Below are positions 2,787-15,162 of a DNA stretch of 37,433 nucleotides, piece by piece. The translations under genes and the position numbers were made by a program. Every line of letters starts with the position of its first letter. Within the stretch, counting starts at the first letter, position 1. Under the pieces are notes generated by a model that saw nothing but the letters and a program-made list of their open reading frames with translations, was not told the DNA's origin and made no database searches. This DNA is from a virus, in IMG/VR virus record IMGVR_UViG_3300036980_000863, positions 1-37,433 of that record. The stretch is one strand, 5' to 3'.

Positions 2787-3106
2787 GGGTCTTTGCCGTC
2801 TTTTCGGAGCGAAAGGCGGGGTTGATAAGGGTCTGGGTCCGATCATGGTCGGGCCGAGGCTGGGCTCCACAGCTAATCTCGGCGAGCGAGATCAAGAAAT
2901 ATGGCACCGCCCGCCGGGCGGCGGAGGCGCGGGGTAAGGGGCTGCTTAGCGATTTGCAGGTGGTCAATTTCGCGTACCCGGCGCGCTCGCGGCTGCCCCG
3001 GCGGGTAGTTTGTTACGGGCGTACTGGCTGGCAGACGGCCCGGCTGGTGCGGTTTCCGGTTGTCGGCGGGGAAGACTTGGTATTGCGGTGCGGGCGCGCG
3101 GTATGA
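2783..3106 (+). CDS. Small phage protein with a glycosyltransferase-like N-terminus
   Basis: 107 residues, starting GTG 2783 in a GTGA overlap with the small membrane protein and ending in an ATGA overlap with the terminase. Both junctions support this frame. The N-terminal part (GLIRVWVRSWSGRGWAPQLI) resembles the N-termini of the two DXD glycosyltransferases at 15159 and 15821 ([20 protein letters not shown]), but there is no DXD motif and the protein is half their length. The C-terminal half is basic, with GRTGWQTARLVRFP. It may share only the Rossmann-like first strand-helix unit of such enzymes, or be a degraded relative. No activity can be claimed. Confidence 0.6.
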   Translation: MRVFAVFSERKAGLIRVWVRSWSGRGWAPQLISASEIKKYGTARRAAEARGKGLLSDLQVVNFAYPARSRLPRRVVCYGRTGWQTARLVRFPVVGGEDLVLRCGRAV

Positions 3107-6036
3107 CCCCGGAAGCCCAACAGTTGGTTGCCGGGGTGACCGAGCGGGTACACGCCGACAAGATACCGGACGCGGCCAAGCTGGTTGCGAAGACCTGCGG
3201 GATTACCCTGGAGAAAGGGGAGAAGCCGGCGGTCCAGGTCCTTCAGTATTTTCTACACACCCTGCTTGACGGCGGCGCGTTCGCAGAGGCGGCGCAGTTG
3301 CTTTGGACTACCACCCAGTTCAACCCGAATCCGGGCAGCACGAAGGAGGTATGGGGGCTTTTCGACACGGCGGATACCGGGCTGATCATGGGCGCCGCCA
3401 AGATGTCCAAGTGCATCCTCGCTTCTGATCTTTGTCGTAAGTTTGATTTATCGCTGAGCCGGGCGGATGCGGTTCGGGTTGGGGATGTTTTGATGGGCGA
3501 CGACGGGACGCCCCGAAACGTGTTGGAAACAGTTTCCGGGCGGGAGCCCATGTGGGAAATAAAACCCGATCACGCCCCGGCGTTTTGTTGTACCGCTGAT
3601 CACGTTCTGACGTTAGTGTGTACGTGGACTAGGCGCAATAATGGCGGGAGATATGGGATTTCGTCTGGGTACACTCCCGGAAAAATAGTTGACGTACCGT
3701 TGCGGGATTACTTGGGGTGGAGTAAGACGCGCAAACGGGCGTATCGGCTGTTTGTAAAACCGGCGGTATCTCCGGCGAAAGAATTACGAGTTGATCCCTA
3801 TATTTATGGAGCATGGCTCGGGGATGGGACTTGTTGCAGGTGTGATCTGACTTCTCCAGAAGGCCCTATGGTGTCGGAGTGGATTCGGTATTGGCGAAGT
3901 CTGGGGTTTCGGGTAGAGAAAATTGCCAAATACGGGTGGAGCGCGCGACATCAGACCCCCGAAAAACGAATCTGGCCGAACTTTTGGATCAGGTCCAGTG
4001 TTGTGAACGGGGTAAAGCGTATTTTTCCAGAGTATCTGGCGGGGTCATTTGAGCAGCGGATGCAGCTACTCGCCGGATTGATAGATTCGGATGGAACTTC
4101 GGTTGGAGCGGGATATGACATTGTTACAAAGTGGCCCGGGCTAGCAGACGATATCGAGGCGCTGGCACGAAGCCTTGGTTTTTTGGTAAGCCGGAGCGTA
4201 AGAAAGCACAGCATTAAGAGCATCGGATTCTCTGCGGAGTATGCGCACTTATATTTGCGCGGGCCTTGCGATTTGATACCAACGAAGGAAAAAAGAATTG
4301 GTAGGGTGGCTCGAAAGAGTATGACCGGCGATGTGATGACTACCCGGTTTTCGGTCACTCCGGTTGGCGAGCAGAAGTATGCGGGGTTCATGTTGGATGG
4401 TAACCACCGATTTCAACTTGCTTCGGGCATAATCACGCACAACAGTTTTTCGATGGGCGTGCGGTTGTTCCTGGAATGGGTGCGCGACCCGGAGTTTACC
4501 TCGGTGCGCGTGCTTGGTCCCTCTGAGGACCATCTGGAGCAGAATCTTTTTTCGCACTTGGTTTCGCTGCACCAGCACGCTACGCTGCCGATGCCGGGCA
4601 CCGTGGGCAATCTGTTCATCGGCCTGAGCCGGCGGGATCAGCTATCCTCGATTCGCGGGGTGGTAATCCCTAAAGGTACGCAGAAGAAGGCCGGGCGTTT
4701 GCAGGGTTCGCACCGCCGGCCCCGTCCCGCCCCGCACCCGATATTCGGCCCGCTGTCCCGGCTGTTCATTTTTCTGGATGAAATCGAGAACATTCCTACC
4801 GGAGTCTGGCAGGACATTGACAACGTTCTCTCGGAAATAGAAAAGGGCGGTCAGGGGTTCAAAGTCTTCGGGGCTTACAATCCGACGAACCCGACCGACG
4901 AAGTCGGGAAGCGCGCGGAGCCGCCCTTCGGGTGGTCCGACCTGGACGAAGACACGCATTTCCGCTGGAAGTCTGCCCGGGGTTGGGACGTGTTGCGCCT
5001 AGACGGCGAGCGGTGCGAGAACGTGATCGGGGGGCAGGTGATCTACCCGGGGTTGCAGACCCGGGATGGCCTGGAGCGGATCGCGCAGAACGCGGGGGGC
5101 CGCATGGCCGCTGGCTACCGCACGATGGGGCGGGGGCTTTATCCGACGACGGGGATCGAGGCAATGATCATTCCGCTGGGGATGTTGGAGAAAATGCGCG
5201 GGGAGTTTATTTGGTATCAGGACCCGCGCCCGGTTGGCGCCACGGACCTAGCCCTGGAGGGCTCAGATGGGGCGGTGCATACTTTGGGCGATTTTGGGAT
5301 GGCGAGCGGGATCAAGTATCCCCCGTCGTTGGATTATCCCAAGGGGCGTACGCTGATGTTCAAAGACGACATGGGCAACGTAGTTCCCCGCTGGGGTCTC
5401 CAGGCAAAGCAGCAGTTTGTGCTTCCGAAGGGGGACACGGTTGCCATGAAGAACGCGATTCTGGACATCAACCGAAAGGCTGGGGTGCGCCCGGACTACT
5501 ATGCCTGTGACCGCACGGGGCACGGCGCGGGAGTCGCGGACCTGTTGCGGTACGAGTGGTCCACCCAGATTCACGACATCAATTACACATCGGCGGCGAG
5601 TGACTCCAAGATTATGCTGGAGGATTCGCGGATTTGCAAAGAGGAATATGAGCGGGTCTTCACGGAACTTTGGTTCGCGGTCCGGCTGTGGGGGGAGTTC
5701 GGCTACTTGCTGCTCCACCCGATTATGGACCTGGGAAAGCTGACCCAACAGCTTACGCAGCGGAGGTTTTTCACCCGGGGGAGCCGAAAGCAAGTAGAGT
5801 CCAAGACGGATTACAAGTCCAGAGGTTTCGAGTCGCCCGGCGAAGCGGATTCTTTGACGCTGTTATTGCACGCCGCGCGCAAGGGCAGTGGCGTTATCCC
5901 CTCGATGCGCGGGGCGGCGGGTCCCTCGTTTATGGCCGAGGACGAGGATTGGGGCCGCGCGCGGTATCCCGGCGGGGTGCGGATAGACGTCTCGAATCAG
6001 TCCCCGACGCTGGATGATCGGGTCGTGATCATGTGA
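3103..6036 (+). CDS. terL: Terminase large subunit with an intein
   Basis: 977 residues as translated, about 633 after removal of a 344-residue intein. It is the DNA-packaging motor: an N-terminal ATPase and C-terminal nuclease that act at the portal. The P-loop region reads GAAKMSK (97-103), then the intein, then SFSMG. Walker B is LFIFLDEIE (554-562, precursor numbering). The coupling motif is GAYNPTNPTD. RNase H-like nuclease acids are probably D715 (GATDLALEG), D803 (CDRTGHG) and D916 (GEADS). The start is set at ATG 3103, in an ATGA overlap with the upstream gene; in-frame codons back to 3010 lie within that gene and are not used. No small terminase subunit was recognised nearby. Confidence 0.93.
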   Translation: MTPEAQQLVAGVTERVHADKIPDAAKLVAKTCGITLEKGEKPAVQVLQYFLHTLLDGGAFAEAAQLLWTTTQFNPNPGSTKEVWGLFDTADTGLIMGAAKMSKCILASDLCRKFDLSLSRADAVRVGDVLMGDDGTPRNVLETVSGREPMWEIKPDHAPAFCCTADHVLTLVCTWTRRNNGGRYGISSGYTPGKIVDVPLRDYLGWSKTRKRAYRLFVKPAVSPAKELRVDPYIYGAWLGDGTCCRCDLTSPEGPMVSEWIRYWRSLGFRVEKIAKYGWSARHQTPEKRIWPNFWIRSSVVNGVKRIFPEYLAGSFEQRMQLLAGLIDSDGTSVGAGYDIVTKWPGLADDIEALARSLGFLVSRSVRKHSIKSIGFSAEYAHLYLRGPCDLIPTKEKRIGRVARKSMTGDVMTTRFSVTPVGEQKYAGFMLDGNHRFQLASGIITHNSFSMGVRLFLEWVRDPEFTSVRVLGPSEDHLEQNLFSHLVSLHQHATLPMPGTVGNLFIGLSRRDQLSSIRGVVIPKGTQKKAGRLQGSHRRPRPAPHPIFGPLSRLFIFLDEIENIPTGVWQDIDNVLSEIEKGGQGFKVFGAYNPTNPTDEVGKRAEPPFGWSDLDEDTHFRWKSARGWDVLRLDGERCENVIGGQVIYPGLQTRDGLERIAQNAGGRMAAGYRTMGRGLYPTTGIEAMIIPLGMLEKMRGEFIWYQDPRPVGATDLALEGSDGAVHTLGDFGMASGIKYPPSLDYPKGRTLMFKDDMGNVVPRWGLQAKQQFVLPKGDTVAMKNAILDINRKAGVRPDYYACDRTGHGAGVADLLRYEWSTQIHDINYTSAASDSKIMLEDSRICKEEYERVFTELWFAVRLWGEFGYLLLHPIMDLGKLTQQLTQRRFFTRGSRKQVESKTDYKSRGFESPGEADSLTLLLHAARKGSGVIPSMRGAAGPSFMAEDEDWGRARYPGGVRIDVSNQSPTLDDRVVIM
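3412..4443 (+). other. Intein with LAGLIDADG homing endonuclease in terL
   Basis: 344 codons, from Cys1 (TGC 3412) to the terminal His-Asn (4438-4443); the +1 extein residue is Ser (AGT 4444). Splicing block A is around CILASDLCRKF with VRVGDVLMGDDG; block B is CTADHVLTL; the C-terminal blocks are GNHRFQLASGIITHN. Between them are two dodecapeptide motifs of a LAGLIDADG (DOD) endonuclease, YGAWLGDGT and LLAGLIDSDG, which would cut intein-less terL alleles to spread the element. All splicing residues look intact, so the element should be active. By eye the DNA is AT-richer than the flanking terminase. Insertion is inside the P-loop, between Lys103 and the following Ser. Confidence 0.93.
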
Positions 6037-11572: not shown

Positions 11573-12290
11573 AATCCTTGTTGCGCTTCAATTCTGGGCC
11601 GGCGACAGAGCCCAGACAATGGCGTTGGCTCGGTTCCTGGCGGACATCGAGCCCACTCATTCGGATCAGGCCGACCTCTTGTTTGCGGCGCGGTTCGACT
11701 GCGAACACGACATGAAAACCGTGGAGTACGTGTCACGGAAGTTCAACGTTCGCACGTTCACCAGCCGGCGCCGAGGCGTGGGCTGGCCCTCGGGGTGCAA
11801 TGAACTGTGGTTCTCGGTCATGGAGTGGGCGGCGTCAATGATTGACGCGCGGAAAATCCCAAACTACAAGGCGATCTTTACTACCGAGGGGGATTGCTGT
11901 CCGATTCAGCGTAACTGGGCTTCGCTGCTCTCGCGGTGTTGGGATCGAGAGACAGCGAAAAAGCGGGTTGTCATGGCCGGTCCGCTAGTAGACCCCGGCC
12001 CGCACATTAACGGCAACGCGCTGATGTCCACGGACCTCAAGTTTTTCAGGTGGCTCTCGCGGCGGGTATCCGGCGTCCCTGCCCGGGTTGGCTGGGATTA
12101 CTATCTTGCGCCAGCCCTCAAAGAAATGGGCTGGGCGGATATTCCAGAAATGAAAAGCATTTATCGGACTCCGACGTTCTCAAGAGAACAGTGGGAGGAC
12201 ATGGTCATGAATAACTGGGTGTGGATTCACGGAGTCAAAGACGATTCTTTGATCCGCATCGGTCGGGAGAAATTCCTAGCGAAGCAATAG
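11562..12290 (+). CDS. Putative glycosyltransferase
   Basis: 242 residues. The N-terminus (MNRKILVALQFWAGDRAQ) and the following strand-helix pattern suggest a nucleotide-sugar-binding fold. AIFTTEGDCCPI (about 106-117) sits where a DxD-like motif would be, with E and D as candidate metal ligands. GPHINGNALMS and WDYYLAPALKEMGW resemble acceptor-binding and late catalytic segments of GT-A enzymes. The stop is two bases before the fucose synthase start. A transferase role fits the cassette, but the motif is a variant, so the call is weaker than for the neighbouring enzymes. Confidence 0.65.
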   Translation: MNRKILVALQFWAGDRAQTMALARFLADIEPTHSDQADLLFAARFDCEHDMKTVEYVSRKFNVRTFTSRRRGVGWPSGCNELWFSVMEWAASMIDARKIPNYKAIFTTEGDCCPIQRNWASLLSRCWDRETAKKRVVMAGPLVDPGPHINGNALMSTDLKFFRWLSRRVSGVPARVGWDYYLAPALKEMGWADIPEMKSIYRTPTFSREQWEDMVMNNWVWIHGVKDDSLIRIGREKFLAKQ

Positions 12291-12292
12291 TT

Positions 12293-13222
12293 ATGGATTA
12301 CGGCTCGAAGATTTTTATAGCAGGCCACCGAGGTTTGGTGGGCAGCGCGCTCTGCCGGGTTTTCCGGAAGCACGGGTATCACAACTTGGTCACGGCGAAC
12401 CACACCGACGTTGACCTGACTGATCCAGTGGCGGTCAAATGGTTTTTCAGTTCGTACTTGCCCGAGTATGTGGTGCTGGCGGCGGCGCGCGTGGGTGGGA
12501 TCATCGCAAACGCGACTCAGCCCGTTGAATTCATGGTGGAGAATCTTCGGATTCAGGACAACGTTATTACCAATGCCAAGGAGTATCACGTCAAAAAGCT
12601 GTTGTTTCTGGGCAGCGCATGCGTGTACCCGAAGCATGCGACCGTGCCCATCCACGAGGACCAGCTATTGACTGGCGTGCTGGAGCCCAGCAACCAGGAG
12701 TATGCTCTGGCGAAGATCGCTGGGATTCGGTTATGTCAGGCATATCGTCGTCAGTACGGGTGCAACTTTATTAGCGCCATGCCGACGAATCTTTTCGGGG
12801 TGGGAGACACTTACGGGCCGAATCGTTCACACGTCATCCCTGGAATGATCTATCGAATTCACACGGCGAAGCGGGAAGCTCAGGATGTGATGCTTTGGGG
12901 CACCGGCTCCCCGGTGCGAGAGTTTTTGTATGCGGACGATTTGGCGGAAGCTTGTTTGCTCCTGATGCAGCATTACAATGAGGCGGAGCAAATCAACGTC
13001 AGTTCGGGGCGCCCGGTCGTGTTGCGGGATTTGGCGGGTTTGGTTGCCAAGACCCTGGAGTTCCCGAAACAAGTTCAGTGGGACCACACCAAGCCAGATG
13101 GAACACCCGTCCGCGTTTTGGATTGCAACCGCGTCAAAGAGTTTGGGTGGGCTCCCAGAGTTTCTCTGGAGGATGGACTCACCAGAGCTTACCAGGATTT
13201 TCTATGCCGAAAGCTTTTCTAG
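12293..13222 (+). CDS. fcl: GDP-L-fucose synthase
   Basis: 309 residues, close to the usual ~320. The enzyme converts GDP-4-keto-6-deoxy-D-mannose to GDP-L-fucose by 3,5-epimerisation and NADPH reduction in the cytoplasm. The Rossmann motif is GHRGLVG (11-17). The SDR catalytic set is S108 with Y137 and K141 (YALAK). C110 and H180 match the epimerase Cys and His of the E. coli enzyme. [18 protein letters not shown] and SHVIPG are strongly conserved family segments. The start is ATG 12293, two bases after the previous stop; longer in-frame extensions overlap the upstream gene. Its stop lies 19 bases inside the GMD gene, which makes its substrate, so the pair is coupled. Confidence 0.95.
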
Positions 13223-15162
13223 TTGGAATTTCAGGGCAGGATGGTTCGTATCTGGCCGAGCTTTTGCTGGCCAAGGGGTACGAAGTTCACGGCTTGATCC
13301 GGCGGTCAAGTTCGCCTAATTTGTCAAGGATCGCACACTTGTTGGGAGCGGTTCGGTTGCATTACGGAGATTTGACTGACGGCGGTTCGTTGATGCGGCT
13401 GCTTTCGTGGATAAAACCTAGAGAAGTTTACAACCTGGGGGCGATGAGTGATGTTAAGGTGAGCTTTGCCTCACCCGAATACACCGCGCAAGCCACCGGG
13501 GTAGGAACGCTGAACCTTTTGGAGGCCTGCCGGAATCTGGAGTTGATGCCGAGGATTTACCAGGCATCCAGTAGCGAAATGTTTGGAAGCTCTCCCCCGC
13601 CGCAAAGCGAGAAGACACCTTTTCACCCCCGTAGCCCGTACGGTTGCGCCAAGGTGTTTTCGTACCACATTGCGCAGAACTATCGCGAGGCCTACGGGAT
13701 GCACATTAGCAATGGGATATTGTTCAATCACGAGTGCGTGACTGCTGAGACTCCGATTATCTTTAGGCAAAATGGGTGGGTTGATATCGCCGAGATACAA
13801 GAGTTAGTTCCGCACCGGACTGATCCACGTCATGGGGGAAAATATCAAACGACTCCAGACAGTTTGGAAATTTGGGATGGGGATAGGTGGAGTCGGGTAA
13901 CTTGTGCCACTGCTACGTGGAATGGGGGAGAAAAGACTGTCTATCGCGTTGTATCTCGCGGGGGGGCGTATTGCGCGACTGGAGACCATATCTCGTTCCT
14001 TGACGGACGCCGGGAAATAAAAACAGAGCGAATTCAACTCGGAGACCAGCTTCAATTGTTTCCGCCTCCTGTTGGGGGTGTTGGCGAGGACTCGTTACTC
14101 TCAGAAAAAGAAGCTGAATTTCTAGGGCTAATGGCAGGTGACGGTTACGTGTGCCCGGAGGGTGGGTCCGCCCGGTTTACCAACCTGGACTCGGTTTTGC
14201 TAGAAAAAGCTGCGAATCTATTTAGGGGGTTAACTGGGGGAAAAGCGAGGCGGGACGAAACCAAAATTTCAGGGTATACCGGGGAGGTAGTCCCCTCGAT
14301 GGAGTTTTCAGGAGCGGTCAAATGGTTTTCGTTGTGGCGATCCGAGTTGTACAATGAGCGGCGAATGAAAAAGGTTCCAAAACGGGTTTTGAACGCTCCG
14401 AAGAAGGTTCAACTAGCTTTCCTGCGGGGATACAATGCGGCGGATGGGCTACGCTCGAAGACCTGTTTGGCGGAGTTCAAGTGTTGGGTAACAAATTCGC
14501 CGTTATTGGCGGCAGGGCTATGTTTTTTAGCGGAGGCCCGCGAGCTTCGTGTAGCGATAAATTGGGACCCGCGCGGATATCTTCGACTCAACGTCGGGGA
14601 TAAAGAACCAAAAAAGGGAAAGCATCTACTAAAGCCTTTGGGTGAAGTGAAGGGGATTCAGAAGATTGATCACTCCGGGTGGCTGTTCGATTTGGAAACA
14701 GAAAGCGGAACTTTTTCGGCGGGGGTTGGCCGGACTTGGGTGCACAATAGCCCGCGCCGGGGCGAGTTGTTTGTGACTCAGAAAATTTCCCAAGCGGTTG
14801 TTCAGATAAAGCGCGGCACGCAGCAGGAATTGCTGTTGGGAAACCTCCAGGCGAAGCGGGATTGGGGGTTTGCGGGGGATTTTGTGGAGGCCATGTGGCT
14901 CATGCTCCAGCAGGATACCCCCGATGATTACGTCGTGGCGACCGGAGAAGCGCACTCGGTGGAGGAATTTGTGCAGGAGGCGTTTTCGTATGCCGGGATG
15001 GACTGGAAGGATTTCGTCAAGGTTGATTCTACGCTGTTCCGTCCGGCGGAAGTGGAGCACTTGCTGGGCGATCCCGGGAAGGTTTTTTTCAAGCTGGGGT
15101 GGGAGCCCAAGGTGAAGTTCAAAGAACTGGTCAAGATGATGGTGGACGCCGCCGGGAAGTGA
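13204..15162 (+). CDS. gmd: GDP-mannose 4,6-dehydratase with an intein
   Basis: 652 residues as translated, about 314 after splicing, slightly short for the family. It dehydrates GDP-D-mannose to GDP-4-keto-6-deoxymannose, the first step to GDP-L-fucose. The NAD(P) motif is [12 protein letters not shown] (8-19). The active-site segment is ASSSEMFGS (121-129) with Y146 and K150 in SPYGCAK. The strand [16 protein letters not shown] is split by the intein. The C-extein keeps [21 protein letters not shown] and [13 protein letters not shown], all closely matching the E. coli enzyme. The start is ATG 13204, overlapping fcl by 19 bases. It ends in a GTGA overlap with the next transferase. Confidence 0.95.
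13735..14748 (+). other. Intein with LAGLIDADG endonuclease motifs in gmd
   Basis: 338 codons, from Cys1 (TGC 13735) to the final His-Asn (14743-14748), with Ser (AGC 14749) as the +1 residue. Block A is [18 protein letters not shown]; block B is [10 protein letters not shown]; the C-terminal blocks are [12 protein letters not shown] and GRTWVHN. The dodecapeptide pair [11 protein letters not shown] and [11 protein letters not shown] marks a DOD homing endonuclease; the second is a variant with N-A-A-D, and its cutting activity is uncertain. The splicing residues are intact. The insertion splits the conserved NHE-SPRRGE segment, so GMD should be inactive until spliced. It has little obvious sequence identity to the terL intein beyond the family motifs. 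Confidence 0.93.

Follow-up and report, generated by a model that had tools for sequence, protein, structure and literature searches.

Among mycobacteriophage proteins, none hosts inteins more often than the large terminase subunit (TerL; Kelley et al. 2016, PMC5050341). The TerL1-a inteins interrupt the P-loop after its invariant Lys and before the next Thr, which has been called a classic P-loop insertion; mycobacteriophage TerL inteins splice efficiently in experiments, and their endonuclease activity has been tested on intein-less partner alleles (PMC5050341). The stretch of viral DNA analysed here (the window, 37,433 nucleotides) carries an intein at the corresponding place, between the Lys and the Ser of the Walker A motif of a terminase large subunit (GAAKMSK↓SFSMG, where the arrow marks the insertion point).

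Compared with TerL1-a of mycobacteriophages, the position is alike, but the site residue is Ser instead of Thr and the host terminase belongs to a divergent uncultured family, whose C-extein found no match among 50,697 annotated phage records. The similarity between the mycobacteriophage TerL inteins and the window intein is only partial. Full-length homologues, 32-33% identical, are the helicase inteins of Jersey-like phages (for example in Salmonella phages vB_SenS-Ent1 and FSL SP-031), which likewise lie at a Walker A motif, between Lys and Thr, but have a helicase as host and a canonical block A. Moreover, the two-domain fold predicted for the window intein is that of PI-SceI, the yeast VMA1 intein, over its whole length, although PI-SceI has 454 residues, is hosted by a V-ATPase subunit and shares about 23% identity in the structural alignment.

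Considering all the results, the locus very probably represents a class 1 intein with a LAGLIDADG homing endonuclease in the terminase P-loop, which excises itself, homes and persists selfishly. The intein is real, well bounded and ordinary in kind, and it is most likely active.

Anatomy of the intein and its host gene

The terminase ORF (3103-6036, + strand) runs from the ATG at 3103, which overlaps the stop codon of the upstream ORF (ATGA), to the stop at 6036, and it is open over 977 residues, 344 of which are the insert. TGC (Cys1, 3412-3414) follows the AAG of the Walker A Lys, CAC AAC ends at 4443 (Asn344), and AGT (Ser+1) starts at 4444; the 344 codons contain no stop and keep the frame of both exteins. 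In intein-less homologues the GAAKMSK and SFSMG flanks are joined exactly. With the borders set in this way by empty-site homologues, the initial annotation of a 344-residue intein splitting the terminase P-loop proved exact in its coordinates (Table 1).

Table 1. Positions of the terminase exteins, the intein and its motifs in the window.
Feature	Position	Strand	Remarks
N-extein of terminase large subunit	3103..3411	+	Ends in Walker A ...GLIMGAAKMSK; homologous to the N-terminal region of TerL proteins that lack inteins
Intein, 344 aa	3412..4443	+	Hint splicing domain and LAGLIDADG endonuclease (PI-SceI type)
Block A, residues 1-25 (CILASDLCRKFDLSLSRADAVRVGD)	3412..3486	+	Cys1 present; residues 2-20 atypical in the family
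Block B, T61-A-D-H64	3592..3603	+	His in 73/73 relatives
First LAGLIDADG motif, YIYGAWLGDG	3799..3828	+	D138
Second LAGLIDADG motif, LAGLIDSDG	4069..4095	+	D227
C-terminal splicing blocks F and G (MLDGNHRFQLASGIITHN)	4390..4443	+	
C-extein of terminase	4444..6036	+	First residue is Ser+1 (Walker A); includes Walker B (FIFLDE) and acidic motifs of nuclease type, ATDLALEGSDGA and GEADS

All the splicing residues are present, namely Cys1, T61/H64 of block B, D329/H332 of block F, H343-N344 and Ser+1. As an exact in-frame insert missing from homologous genes, with a nucleophile at position 1, the block B His, the His-Asn pair and Ser+1, the element belongs to class 1; its two motifs with one catalytic Asp each (D138 and D227) are those of a LAGLIDADG homing endonuclease, and its terminase host and its insertion after the Lys of Walker A, before a Ser, correspond to TerL1-a. 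The splicing and DOD endonuclease motifs had been described as intact, which holds for the catalytic residues and both LAGLIDADG aspartates but not for block A, since residues 2-20 are unlike the family.

Pfam recognised Hom_end_hint (6.1e-10) and Hom_end (4.1e-7) in the intein, both above their gathering scores, and PI-SceI was recovered by phmmer at 4e-11. The AlphaFold2 model, built from an alignment of 74 inteins, reached a mean pLDDT of 93.4 and a pTM of 0.90, with values of 97-98 in the block A region. Its residues 1-344 aligned with PI-SceI at Z 31.4, and the splicing part matched Prp8 inteins at 1.4 Å over 138-140 residues (Foldseek E 1e-24). In this model the splicing domain has the Hint fold and the whole is, in silico, a complete intein of the PI-SceI type.

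Regarding the host gene, the label of terminase was right, since homologues that lack the intein match PHROG families of terminase large subunits (lowest E 2.7e-16; phrog_2 in 16 of the 46 members of an aligned sample taken from viral contigs) and conserve the Walker A motif (GAAKMSKS), the Walker B motif (FIFLDE) and the acidic motifs in the nuclease part. Pfam is silent here, with no family matched by the window exteins, and the C-extein alone matched none of the PHROG terminase families. The terminase profile gave only weak matches to solved structures, the best of them (E 0.09) being a large terminase, and the structure model of an intein-less terminase (L007) reached a pLDDT of 37 with five sequences in its alignment, too low to be usable. 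On these comparisons of sequence, the host gene encodes a large terminase subunit of a divergent group known from uncultured phages. A serine recombinase gene (Resolvase domain, 1944-2627) is located just upstream of the terminase, and a similar one also precedes the terminase of L007.

Empty sites, insertion points and mobility

Intein-less alleles, which the initial annotation had proposed to look for, are abundant. A single scan kept 80 terminase relatives, near-copies included; two end before the site, and 77 of the 78 readable ones show K↓S without any insert, the sole intein carrier among them being L120. No intein is present in any of the closest relatives, whose C-exteins are 78-82% identical to that of the window, and the 48 bp spanning the joined site in relatives reach 90% identity with the window. 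These joined sites are candidate cleavage sites for the endonuclease. The L120 terminase is about 70% identical to that of the window, and its intein, at the same site, is 55% identical in amino acids. This identity is found even though only about a third of the third codon positions are identical between the two inteins, which points to purifying selection on the intein protein. Furthermore, inteins of the same family occupy the same position in two far more distant terminases (L002 and L027).

In a phylogeny of 76 terminases, at least three gains or losses on well-supported branches are required to explain the four that carry inteins; the sister of the window (L107) and the sister of L120 (L144) are both empty, and the placement of L002 and L027 is uncertain owing to their long branches. 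This number of events would be as expected of a mobile element. The base composition of the intein (GC 52.4%, GC3 54.9%) also departs from that of the exteins (GC about 62%, GC3 77-81%).

Related loci are common in viral contigs, with at least 517 confirmed in an alignment query. Of the 83 viral relatives studied in detail, almost every one interrupts a Walker A motif, in agreement with the earlier view of the P-loop as a favourite insertion point: 63 do so after the Lys, before Ser or Thr (a strict Walker A pattern fits 30 of these, and by eye most of the rest are GxGK↓T), and another 14 have G↓(S/T)GK or a similar site. In many viral contigs the hosts of related Walker A inteins are terminases and helicases. 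The terminase intein of Salmonella phage Segz_1 (2501-3589) is of the same family and lies two residues upstream, at GGRG↓SGKT; together with the 14 viral contigs at sites of this type, it indicates that the family uses more than one P-loop position. An exact-pattern scan of the viral contigs found no near-identical copy of the window intein, and a single scan of bacterial genomes confirmed no relatives.

We infer that the window intein splices and that its endonuclease cuts. After translation, the intein would most likely excise itself through an N-S shift at Cys1, transfer to Ser+1 and cyclisation of Asn344, and the joining of GAAKMSK to SFSMG would give a normal ATPase. It is reasonable to think that the unspliced TerL would lack ATP binding, so packaging would need splicing. 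The endonuclease, for its part, would most likely cut terL alleles that lack the intein, in the region of the 3411/4444 junction, with the intein being copied in, and the intein would persist as a selfish mobile element. The P-loop is probably favoured because both the target DNA and the protein are conserved there and because an intein lost imprecisely would leave an essential gene destroyed.

These findings extend the host range of P-loop inteins to a divergent, uncultured family of terminases, and the many empty-site relatives are ready material for testing homing. The picture of phage inteins is unchanged, as this is a well-described type of mobile element at a favourite site. The point of note is whether such an unusual block A still permits splicing at the usual speed.

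Block A and alternative readings

Against 73 non-redundant relatives, which average 39.5 bits over residues 2-20 (lowest 16.8), the window intein scores -13.4 bits (z -5.4), whereas its residues 21-69 and 313-344 score as usual (z about -1). The altered positions are T6, M10, G13 and K16. The L120 intein has LCRKFD, including Cys8, in common with the window but keeps T6 and G13 (z -2.6), and the divergence between both inteins is no greater in block A than across the rest of their length. Compensating frameshifts were considered and rejected, as a frameshift-aware profile path was no better than the actual frame. The oddity is probably a lineage-specific change, part of it common to L120, and splicing with the changed block A is likely, but the mismatch could make it slow or impaired.

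This block is what suggests a decaying intein, in which a degenerate block A would splice weakly and leave the terminase of the window phage partly or wholly inactive. It is the worst match in the family, with T6, M10 and G13 among its changes, but neither the reading frame nor the catalytic residues nor the two LAGLIDADG motifs are damaged, the comparison with L120 and the frameshift result speak against decay, and the AlphaFold2 model is confident precisely there. Decay is thus improbable.

A timing or redox role had also been proposed for the intein, according to which conditional splicing (redox, stress or timing) would decide when the packaging motor is activated. Conditional splicing has been reported elsewhere, for example for the mycobacterial DnaB intein (PMC6195587), and slightly more TerL precursor is mentioned for an oxidising E. 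coli strain (PMC5050341). The window intein has nine Cys, several of which, including C1, C8, C60 and C70, are common to L120. Disulfides between extein and intein exist in other systems, but they have no obvious counterpart here because the sole N-extein Cys (KTCG) lies about 70 residues before the junction and the last three N-extein residues are MSK; no extein Cys adjoins the junction. C60 is also present in 29 of the 83 aligned relatives, but C8 is in none of them, so no conserved switch is visible beyond the window-L120 pair. Moreover, the terminases of close relatives have no intein at all, and this patchy distribution indicates that such phages manage without it. The proposed role found no specific support, and a regulatory intein is very improbable. 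The narrower idea that, in the window-L120 lineage, the rebuilt block A and the extra Cys8 slow or condition splicing, with the intein gating the assembly of the packaging motor, is likewise very doubtful. Finally, an assembly artefact joining two genes can be practically dismissed, given the in-frame insert with exact borders and the homologous inteins at the same site in L002, L027 and L120, which come from other contigs, and nothing was found in its favour.

A second insert in the window

A second intein-like insert of 338 aa (13735-14748) is present within a GDP-mannose 4,6-dehydratase, in the ORF 13078-15162 (+ strand). One of its motifs, LGLMAGDGY, resembles LAGLIDADG, a second one, RGYNAADG, does so more weakly, and the match of the insert to LAGLIDADG_3 in Pfam (7e-4) is slightly under the cut-off. 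Its similarity to phage inteins is only weak, no relative of it was confirmed in viral contigs, and no paper was found on an intein within GDP-mannose 4,6-dehydratase. The ORF that carries it adjoins and overlaps another one (12221-13222), both from the NAD-dependent epimerase/dehydratase superfamily, and this pair suggests the synthesis or modification of surface sugars by the phage.
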